Shown here in pieces: positions 1-8,383 of a DNA stretch of 20,933 bases (the first letter of the stretch is position 1; each line of letters starts with the position of its first letter). This stretch comes from a virus. Made by a program: the position numbers and the translations under genes. The stretch is taken from positions 1 to 20,933 of the IMG/VR virus record IMGVR_UViG_3300030101_000509; one strand, written 5' to 3'. Under the pieces are notes generated by a model, which was given only the letters and a program-made list of their open reading frames with translations, was not told the DNA's origin and searched no databases.

Positions 1-843
1 CAATCGCCCGGCGCATACTCCGCACTACCGGGCAGAGCTATCGTAGACGAACGCTTCTACCAATATCCCATGACAATGGTCGTACTCGCTCACTGCTGTG
101 GTCACGTTAACTACCACACAGCTATCTTCTGGGTAAACCAAAGCACCCTCGCCCGTCGTATGAATTGTACACAGCAAGCTATCTCTCAGCATATGCGTAA
201 ACTCGTACAATGGGGATACATAGAAAAGATACGCAAAGAAGCCCCCATCAGAGCCTACGGACGCAAAGGAGCCGCCTGGAGAGTTATCTACGACCCCAGA
301 GTATCATTAGACGAAGCACTCGCCACAATACCGTCAGATGCAGCTACCCCAGAGCAACAAGCAGAAGAGGCCAAGAAGACTATGGAACTCGCTACAACAG
401 GACCAAAAGGACAGAAGAAACGTACAAATAAAAACAAGCCCCAGCTTGTAGATGATAATGACAAGTACAAGCCCCAGCTTGTGCATAGCCACAAGGCACA
501 GCTTGTTCATAAAGACTTACATAGAACTATAGATAAAGAGATAAAGGATGTAGATTGCAAAAGACTATGCGAACGAATGAGCGCAGAAATAATGAAAAGA
601 TATGGGAAGGGTTGGGTATACGATATGAGACAGATGGAGTTGGCAAAAGAACTGTACAGTCTTGGCTACACTGTCGATAGCTTTGGTAAGGAAGCTGGGT
701 ATGTACTCGATTGGCTGGTAAAGAATAACAAGCAACACCCGGTATCGTTGCAATACTTCATAGCCAGAAAGCAGAACAACAAGAAGAACAAGACAGCGGA
801 GGACCGTATAAAACATCTGACAAACAAGATGCGAATTAGATAA
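1..843 (+). CDS. Replication initiator-like winged-helix protein, 5' partial
   Basis: The frame is open from the first base, and residues before the first internal ATG (position 70) read like family sequence (GRAIVDERFYQYP), so the true start is probably outside the window. At least 280 residues are present. A helix-turn-helix/winged-helix segment lies at 139-231 (QSTLARRMNCTQQAISQHM, then GYIEKI), the arrangement of phage replication proteins with an N-terminal DNA-binding domain such as the lambda O type. A hydrophilic Lys/Gln-rich linker follows, with three K-(P/A)-Q-L-V units at 436-450, 469-483 and 493-507, then a helical C-terminal domain (about 550-760) and a Lys/Asn-rich end. By analogy the N-terminus would bind origin DNA and the C-terminus recruit helicase; neither is shown. 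The linker repeats coincide with DNA dyads. A plain transcription regulator is the main alternative. Confidence 0.72.
   Translation, partial: QSPGAYSALPGRAIVDERFYQYPMTMVVLAHCCGHVNYHTAIFWVNQSTLARRMNCTQQAISQHMRKLVQWGYIEKIRKEAPIRAYGRKGAAWRVIYDPRVSLDEALATIPSDAATPEQQAEEAKKTMELATTGPKGQKKRTNKNKPQLVDDNDKYKPQLVHSHKAQLVHKDLHRTIDKEIKDVDCKRLCERMSAEIMKRYGKGWVYDMRQMELAKELYSLGYTVDSFGKEAGYVLDWLVKNNKQHPVSLQYFIARKQNNKKNKTAEDRIKHLTNKMRIR
434..506 (+). repeat. Three iteron-like 16-bp dyads inside the initiator-like gene
   Basis: ACAAGCCCCAGCTTGT occurs at 434-449 and 467-482, and a variant (ACAAGGCACAGCTTGT) at 491-506. Each has inverted arms ACAAG(C)/(G)CTTGT. Starts are 33 and 24 bases apart. The codon before each Lys differs in meaning (AAC Asn, TAC Tyr, CAC His) but always supplies the A and C that complete the dyad, so the DNA rather than the protein appears conserved. 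Initiator binding sites inside the initiator gene are known from lambda. A repeated protein motif is the alternative. Confidence 0.65.
434..560. other. Candidate replication origin
   Basis: The three dyads are followed by an AT-rich stretch (about 507-557, roughly 27% GC by hand count) that could act as a DNA-unwinding element. GC skew reverses here: in 1-360 I count about 110 C and 75 G, in 421-540 about 26 C and 22 G, and in 541-660 about 11 C and 36 G. Iterons, an AT-rich flank and a skew reversal next to an initiator-like gene together suggest an origin. All of this is inference from sequence. Confidence 0.5.
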
Positions 844-7296: not shown

Positions 7297-7331
7297 GCCC
7301 CCGTTTTGTCCTTTTTACGGGGGCTTTTTTT
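7297..7331 (+). terminator. Intrinsic terminator after the scaffold gene
   Basis: A perfect 8-bp stem, GCCCCCGT (7297-7304) with ACGGGGGC (7317-7324), encloses a 12-base T-rich loop and is followed by seven T (7325-7331). This is a textbook rho-independent terminator for + strand transcription. It separates the packaging/portal/scaffold unit from the capsid unit. Confidence 0.9.
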
Positions 7332-7358
7332 GTACAAACTCTAAATGTAGGGTATAAA
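7330..7358 (+). promoter_or_regulatory. Candidate sigma70-type promoter for the capsid unit
   Basis: TTGTAC (7330-7335) and TATAAA (7353-7358) are 17 bases apart. The -10 matches 5 of 6 consensus bases, the -35 only 3 of 6, and the -35 lies in the palindrome TTTGTACAAA (7329-7338). Placement directly after a terminator and before the capsid gene, which needs very high expression, supports it. Predicted transcription starts around 7364-7366. Confidence 0.5.
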
Positions 7359-7363
7359 GTATT

Positions 7364-7381
7364 TACAAGCTACAGCTTGTA
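7364..7381. promoter_or_regulatory. Fourth copy of the origin dyad, possible operator
   Basis: TACAAGCTACAGCTTGTA is a perfect 8-bp inverted repeat with a 2-base centre. Its inner 16 bases match the dyads inside the initiator-like gene (434-449, 467-482) at 14 of 16 positions, differing only in the centre. It covers the predicted start of transcription, a position where a bound protein would repress. It also forms a short hairpin 7 bases before eight T (7389-7396), so weak termination is a rival reading. Confidence 0.5.
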
Positions 7382-7410
7382 GTATATCTTTTTTTTCAAC
7401 AGATAACCCT

Positions 7411-7487
7411 CTGGGCCTGTTTGGCGTGTAGAAATACACCGGGCGTGGACGTATCCACGAAGCCAAAGGCCGGAACTCCCGACAACC
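7411..7487 (+). ncRNA. Structured 5' leader of the capsid mRNA (three-way junction, possible pseudoknot)
   Basis: Nested complementarity gives a compact fold. The outer stem is GGCC 7414-7417/7468-7471, a 2-base bulge, and TTTGGC 7420-7425 with GCCAAA 7462-7467. Inside are a GAAA-tetraloop hairpin (GTGTA 7426-7430/TACAC 7435-7439) and a second hairpin (CGTGGA 7444-7449/TCCACG 7454-7459, loop CGTA). The junction linker CGGG (7440-7443) can pair with CCCG (7478-7481), giving a pseudoknot. I do not recognise a known riboswitch or ribozyme core. It lies about 40-50 bases before the capsid ribosome site. It could be a cis-regulator, an mRNA stabiliser or a processing element. Confidence 0.6.
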
Positions 7488-7534
7488 TATAACGGCGACA
7501 AATTTAACTGGTTCAATAATAGGAGCTATAAATT

Positions 7535-8383
7535 ATGTCTACGAACCTTAGTCCGGCGTTCGTTCAGCTATTTGAAGCGGAAGTACATCAAGCCTATCAA
7601 GGTGCTGCTGTTCTTCGTGGTGCTGCACGGACCCGAAATGGTGTGACGGGAGACACCGTAAAATTCCCGAAAGTTGGTAAAGGTACTGCGTCGGTTCGCG
7701 TTCCACAAACTGACGTAACTCCAATCAATGCAGCTTTTTCACAGGTTTCAATAAGTATGCAAGACTTTGTTGCTGCTGAATATTCTGATATATTTAATCA
7801 GCAAAAAGTTAACTTCGATGAGCGTCAAGAGTTAGCGCAAGTCGTGGGTAATGCTATTGGACGTCGTGAAGACCAAATCATTATTGATGCACTTAATGCC
7901 GCTTCGGCGGGTTCTACAGTTGCTAAAACTGTGGTGACCTCTGGTTCAGCTACAGCATCTAACTTAAATGTTGGTAAAATATTAGCTGCGAAAAAAGCTT
8001 TGGATGCGAAAAACGTGCCCCCAACTGACCGTCACTTTGTAATCCATGCTAATAACCTAGCTGGTTTGCTCGGTGATGAACGTGCGATTTCGAGTGACTT
8101 TCAGACTGTACAAGCATTAGTAAGCGGAAGCGTGAACTCAATGCTAGGCTTTCAGTTCCACATTGTAGGTGACCGAGATGAAGGTGGTCTACCATTGGCT
8201 ACTGCTGATAGAACTTGTTTTGCTTTCCATCGTTCAGCAATCGGTGTTGGTGTTGGTATCGCTCCAAAAACAGAAATCAACTACATCCCTGAGAAAACGT
8301 CTTTTCTAGTAACTGCGATGCTCTCAATGGGCAGTGGCGTTATAGATGTTGACGGCCTCGTTGATGTTGTTTGTGAAGAATAA
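7535..8383 (+). CDS. Major capsid protein
   Basis: This gene encodes 282 residues, with AGGAG at 7521-7525 ahead of ATG 7535. The sequence has the pattern of phage coat proteins of HK97-fold type: an N-terminal arm (FVQLFEAEVHQAYQG), TGDTVKFPKVGKGTA in the E-loop region, FVAAEYSDIFNQQKVNFDER in the spine, then GNAIGRREDQIIIDAL, and a C-terminal domain with FQFHIVGDRDEGG and PEKTSFLVTAMLSMG. It directly follows the scaffold gene and precedes a small decoration-like gene, the normal order. The HK97 fold is inferred from family knowledge. At 282 residues it is shorter than T7 gp10A (345). Expression is probably governed by its own promoter and leader RNA. Confidence 0.9.
   Translation: MSTNLSPAFVQLFEAEVHQAYQGAAVLRGAARTRNGVTGDTVKFPKVGKGTASVRVPQTDVTPINAAFSQVSISMQDFVAAEYSDIFNQQKVNFDERQELAQVVGNAIGRREDQIIIDALNAASAGSTVAKTVVTSGSATASNLNVGKILAAKKALDAKNVPPTDRHFVIHANNLAGLLGDERAISSDFQTVQALVSGSVNSMLGFQFHIVGDRDEGGLPLATADRTCFAFHRSAIGVGVGIAPKTEINYIPEKTSFLVTAMLSMGSGVIDVDGLVDVVCEE

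Follow-up and report, generated by a model that had tools for sequence, protein, structure and literature searches.

The window analysed here, the whole 20,933-nucleotide stretch of the IMG/VR virus record IMGVR_UViG_3300030101_000509, opens within a gene, rep, that is located just upstream of terS and is predicted to encode a replication initiator. The features at this end of the window are the following.

1-843, plus strand: rep gene, encoding a winged-helix (wHTH) protein of O/DnaD type (Pfam HTH_36, PHROG, AF2); 5′ end lost at the contig start
172-195, plus strand: codons of the recognition helix QQAISQHM, with the variable residue Q63 (187-189), which tracks the DNA-site class in 30 contigs
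434-449: origin dyad 1, ACAAGCCCCAGCTTGT, perfect 6-bp arms
467-482: origin dyad 2, ACAAGCCCCAGCTTGT, perfect 6-bp arms
491-506: origin dyad 3, ACAAGGCACAGCTTGT, one mismatch, perfect 5-bp arms
507-566: AT-rich tract by AT content, presumed DNA-unwinding element

The predicted initiator gene and the dyads within it

The truncation has removed about 20 codons of rep, which relatives supply (MLKSELTPDPVRDAPEGHG...). The window Rep matches HTH_36 of Pfam above the cut-off (E=5.5e-6) and has weak matches to several replication-initiation, O-like and DnaD-like families of PHROG, and 42 of the 45 Rep relatives scanned matched the replication-initiation family phrog_270. Phage_rep_O_N was absent among the Pfam matches to Rep at E<=1, the O-like matches being obtained via PHROG only. 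The AF2 model consists of a wHTH, a disordered linker (158-203) that coincides with the part of the protein encoded by the dyads, and a helical C-terminal domain; the mean pLDDT is 71, and a pTM of 0.40 limits the use of the model for the domain arrangement. When the model was compared with PDB folds, generic MarR-type dimeric regulators were retrieved, none below E 0.001, while replisome organizers and a lambda GpO N-terminal protein are among the viral fold matches. The gene is thus predicted to encode an initiator with an N-terminal winged-helix DNA-binding domain. No tblastn match to Rep was obtained in cultured phages, and a search for the host via genome contigs yielded no encoded relative. 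Two further elements were observed downstream of rep: a small protein (999-1268) ending in DEIPF, possibly a minimal SSB, at the position where the relative G014 encodes a true SSB whose C-terminal end is DDVIPF, and, between rep and this SSB-like gene, a G-run/C-run pair (GGAGGGGGGG ... CCCCCCCCGCCCCC, 890-945) that likely forms a strong hairpin.

The preliminary description of this DNA, made from its letters alone, had reported three 16-bp dyads at 434-449, 467-482 and 491-506, each preceded by a codon AAC, TAC or CAC, and both the dyads and the codons are present as reported. The pattern ACAAGN6CTTGT occurs four times in the window against 0.04 expected from dinucleotide shuffles, none of which reached 4. 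The copies are the three origin dyads and one at 7365-7380, in the predicted capsid promoter, which the earlier list had missed, and there are no others in the window.

IMG/VR searches first provided 12 close relatives; a further round brought 80 Rep loci with identities as low as about 40%, and 58 unique origin regions served as the conservation set. Each of these origins has 2-4 dyads in the linker-coding part of rep, and dyads were found in all three reading frames: those in frame 1 encode [NYHD]K-P-Q-L-V, those in frame 2 QAPAC or QAAPC, and those in frame 0 TSSSL or TSPTL. Between the two downstream dyads the distance is 24 bp in almost all relatives, and the upstream dyad lies 33, 34, 44 or 45 bp away in most three-dyad origins; these distances are roughly one turn of the helix apart, and in many cases they are not divisible by three. 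In the most divergent lineages (L140, L145, L152 and similar ones) one arm is degenerate, with CTAGT, GTTGT or ATTGT in place of CTTGT while ACAAG is kept. The selection on DNA proposed in the preliminary description is borne out across the family: the codon in front of a frame-1 dyad has C as its last base in 149/149 cases, compared with 54% of the N/Y/H/D codons elsewhere in rep genes, and leucine is encoded by CTT in 114/129, compared with about 7% elsewhere. That description had also held that relatives keeping K-P-Q-L-V while the dyads decay would speak against its reading; the situation found is the reverse, the dyads being kept while frame and peptide change, which indicates conservation of the DNA and not of the peptide. 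Judged from these sequence comparisons, the three dyads at 434-506 exist as described, exceed chance and are under selection at the DNA level.

Surroundings of the predicted origin

The AT-rich flank noted earlier is confirmed, since 507-556 is 74% AT and falls in the 99th percentile of the 50-bp stretches of the window. As a mean over the 58 origins, AT content reaches 0.67-0.81 over the 60 bp that follow the last dyad, compared with about 0.5 around it. In most relatives a perfect DnaA box (TGTGGATAA) is located 19-21 nt upstream of the first dyad; in L134/L036 the box is TTATCCACA, on the other strand and encoding a different peptide. The window clade has no perfect DnaA box at the origin, the matches in the window having one mismatch and being at chance level, and the box is also absent from four-dyad lineages. 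L129, L130, L149, L151 and L158, which belong to lineages without a box, carry a fourth origin dyad, as if one replaced the other. A gene for a stand-alone DnaA domain IV (Bac_DnaA_C, E=1.6e-14, no AAA+ domain) was observed at L169:8420-8875 (G006 25420-25875), with equivalents upstream of rep in most relatives. As a general rule, this gene was rejected as the partner of the DnaA box, because the gene was seen both where the box is present and where it is absent, and there are also boxes without the gene.

The base counts made by hand in the preliminary description (C110/G75 in 1-360 and G36/C11 in 541-660) are exact, and the minimum of cumulative GC skew in the window is at position 520. As a marker of the origin, skew held up only in part: a local switch occurs 76-102 bp past the first dyad in three of eight long contigs, but it lies 1.2 kb upstream in another three and about 3 kb upstream in two, so that the minimum of cumulative skew is not at the origin in 5/8. 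The long C-rich zone matches a stretch of genes on the minus strand, an early operon encoding a LexA-like HTH protein (PF01726), RecT, a YqaJ exonuclease and a serine recombinase. The global skew minimum is confounded by this oppositely oriented operon, and global skew was therefore rejected as proof of an origin. Within rep itself, mean third-position GC skew changes sign at the dyads, from -0.14 before them to +0.18 after them, and such a flip was seen in 95% of the 58 loci. The serine recombinase (G006 23993-24778, minus strand) has a resolvase domain and a partial Recombinase domain, which could mean a temperate or formerly temperate lifestyle. The T7-like background that had been proposed applies to the structural genes only; near the origin, neither a polymerase nor a primase gene of T7 type was seen. 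The lambda-ori layout proposed with it stands, with a wHTH initiator, dyads in the linker-coding part of its gene and an AT-rich tract, and with conservation of DNA rather than peptide. In all, this arrangement of dyads and AT tract points to a probable replication origin of the lambda/SPP1 type inside the initiator gene.

A fourth dyad in the predicted capsid promoter

The fourth copy of the dyad lies between the scaffold and major capsid genes, in a region with the following features.

7297-7332, plus strand: intrinsic-terminator-like hairpin and T-run closing the upstream unit, conserved with changes in relatives
7362-7390, plus strand: predicted sigma-70 promoter of the capsid gene (TTTACA 7362-7367, 17 bp, TATCTT 7385-7390)
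7365-7380: fourth dyad, ACAAGCTACAGCTTGT, presumed operator, inside the 17-bp promoter spacer
7398-7490, plus strand: structured 5′ leader RNA of the capsid mRNA (RNAalifold consensus)
7535-8383, plus strand: major capsid protein gene (tblastn to annotated major capsid proteins)

Among 47 unique leaders, a set defined by a dyad preceded by TTT, TTTACA is present in 47 and the TAT at 17-bp spacing is matched by T in 39, A in 44 and T in 42; a separate count that did not require TTT found TTTACA in all 43 unique dyad-bearing leaders. Conservation of TTTACA-N17-TAT around the dyad indicates that the dyad sits inside a promoter of the sigma-70 type. Sister leaders without a dyad retain TTTACA-N18-TATC, and the TTT prefix was not seen at the origin dyads inspected, which supports a separate -35 function in the leader. 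A symmetric site between the -35 and -10 elements of a conserved promoter, as found here, is the arrangement of a repressor-type promoter-spacer operator. Long related contigs (31-35 kb), three of which are taken to be near complete from their terminal repeats, have essentially no copies of the dyad pattern outside the origin and the capsid leader; the exception is an additional, chance-like match in each of G018 and G020, at the capsid gene start near the leader. The structured leader RNA begins just downstream of the predicted transcription start, and its consensus includes 6 pairs with two-sided compensatory change. Searches with the leader gave sub-threshold matches in Rfam, none at gathering score, and its DNA has no match in cultured phages. 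The structure is also conserved in L014-L093 (the dyad family and more distant relatives), possibly representing a new cis-regulatory RNA.

The origin and the capsid promoter also appear to share a recognition class. In contig L193 the three origin sites and the capsid-promoter site all read ACAACN6GTTGT, and all six rep-bearing contigs of its lineage combine ACAAC origin dyads with the helix QQAVSRHF, most others having QQA[IV]SQH; a Q-to-R change in the Rep recognition helix thus stands alongside the switch in the site. Helix and leader were compared in the 30 contigs that hold both places, a count that ignores kinship and comprises few independent events: the QQA[IV]SQH helix goes with an ACAAG leader in 25/25, a 26th contig with an ACAAG leader has no helix to compare, and in the four remaining contigs (R, L, E and QQAASQ helices) the leader dyad is switched, diverged or absent. 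The full co-switch of helix, origin and leader represents one evolutionary event, seen with all three elements in one contig only. The class of the origin sites is not set by the helix residue alone, as ACAAG dyads are still present at the origins that accompany L and E helices. Leader dyads have been lost in at least two lineages and have diverged in a third while the origin dyads stay, implying that the operator is dispensable in those lineages. In L036/L134, L117, L217, L226, L227 and L230, where the leader dyad is lost or changed, the origin dyads remain wherever they could be seen, and the helices that are readable carry a changed recognition-helix residue. Altogether, shared recognition between the origin sites and the capsid-promoter site is well supported by these comparisons.

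Could the dyads be something other than binding sites for Rep? In many relatives the linker again contains KPQLV-like peptides, so that the repeats might be selected as a peptide motif, for instance a linear motif binding a host factor, with the DNA symmetry as a by-product. The occurrence of dyads in all three frames, where they encode QAPAC or TSSSL instead, and of one copy in non-coding DNA at 7365, leaves this explanation virtually no room, and it was ruled out by the frame changes. Action as RNA hairpins, serving as terminators or processing sites, is very improbable: a 6-bp stem with a 4-nt loop could form, and in the window a T-run comes after the leader copy, which is scored as a terminator, but this T-run is not conserved, the leader copy has another terminator before it and the predicted start after it, and the array with its fixed 24/33-45 bp spacing fits DNA sites.

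Binding of all four dyads by another protein, such as the LexA-like repressor, TerS or a host factor, which would make the dyads a regulon or a packaging site, appears quite unlikely. Dimeric regulators do use dyads, a LexA-type HTH protein (PF01726) is encoded by these phages, and terS follows shortly after rep. Yet the LexA-like recognition regions vary widely among genomes with the same site, the ACAAC genome resembles an ACAAG genome in this region, and the TerS of the R-lineage is ordinary; neither protein tracks the site class, and both were rejected as binders. The Rep recognition helix, by contrast, is nearly invariant and changes in the lineage with changed sites, and an origin would account for the position, the AT tract and the DnaA box. 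There is somewhat more to be said for a variant that keeps the origin reading but has the fourth site act on replication, as a Rep fork barrier or secondary origin that would trigger the switch from theta to concatemer replication. In SPP1, gp38 binds oriL in gene 38 as well as oriR in the late region, where a fork-barrier role has been proposed (PMC6316719, PMC3485210), and the gene complement of the present phages includes RecT, an exonuclease of the YqaJ type and an SSB or SSB-like protein. Nevertheless, we regard this as unlikely, because SPP1 oriR comprises a repeat array and its own AT-rich element, whereas here there is one dyad and no array, placed exactly in the spacer of a promoter whose TTTACA is conserved in all 47 leaders of the set.

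A possible link between replication and capsid expression, and its relation to known systems

We therefore prefer the reading in which the Rep sites constitute an in-gene origin and the same site recurs in the capsid promoter, with repression and titration as the presumed consequences, and give it a probability of roughly 0.8. Rep dimers would bind the dyads via the N-terminal winged helix, the AT-rich flank at 507-566 would melt after binding, and the helical C-terminal domain may help recruit the host replisome; in most relatives a DnaA box would be added to the Rep sites. At 7365-7380 a Rep dimer would be placed between -35 and -10 and would block RNA polymerase at the capsid promoter, an effect proposed from the position of the site. 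With a spacer of 17 bp, repression is the expected effect of a bound dimer, MerR-like activation by twisting needing a longer spacer. Each genome would have one capsid operator and 3-4 origin sites, and as replication multiplies the latter, Rep could be titrated off the capsid promoter so that capsid expression rises. That the initiator doubles as repressor of the major capsid promoter, with a copy-number sensor built from the origin, is a tentative proposal, to which we give slightly less than an even chance.

The arrangement bears on how capsid production is timed relative to replication in small phages without an RNA polymerase of their own. With a predicted initiator site in both the origin and the capsid promoter, one protein could link genome copying to shell building. 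If so, capsid synthesis would turn on as genome copy number titrates the initiator, and changes in specificity would have to happen at the origin and the capsid promoter together; the natural specificity switch makes this link directly testable. The analysis also provides a well-defined predicted origin for a widespread family of uncultured marine podoviruses whose closest cultured relative has no described initiator.

In-gene origins as such are already known from lambda and SPP1. In the literature searched, most of it outside subscription journals, we did not find a site shared with a capsid promoter and accompanied by a natural joint specificity switch. In lambda, the origin lies in the middle of the initiator gene O, with inverted-repeat iterons bound by O and an AT-rich tract on one side (PMC7466680). 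The predicted origin resembles that of lambda and of Stx phages in its location within the gene, its several dyadic repeats and the AT-rich tract on one side, but the iteron is the 16-bp ACAAGN6CTTGT instead of a 19-bp imperfect repeat, Rep has no Phage_rep_O_N match, a DnaA box is present in most relatives, no P-type loader gene was seen near rep, and there is an extra site in the capsid promoter. With SPP1 gp38, Rep would share binding sites inside its own gene and at a second place in the late region. However, SPP1 supplies its own helicase and loader, and the oriR array with its AT element has as counterpart a single dyad in a promoter spacer; a second array with repeats and an AT-rich element was not found in the late region, which has the one dyad at 7365. 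The closest cultured relative, Methylophilales phage MEP301 (capsid 61%, TerL 69%), has a candidate wHTH gene, gp55, of 201 aa, which is shorter than Rep, and no ACAAGN6CTTGT array was found in it; the MEP301 paper names no initiator or origin. Iteron plasmids offer a regulatory parallel: their Rep proteins bind origin repeats as well as a promoter operator, leading to autoregulation and titration, and the present phages likewise have predicted initiator sites both at an origin and within a promoter. The difference is that the operator of the plasmids controls rep itself, whereas the one described here is located at the capsid gene.
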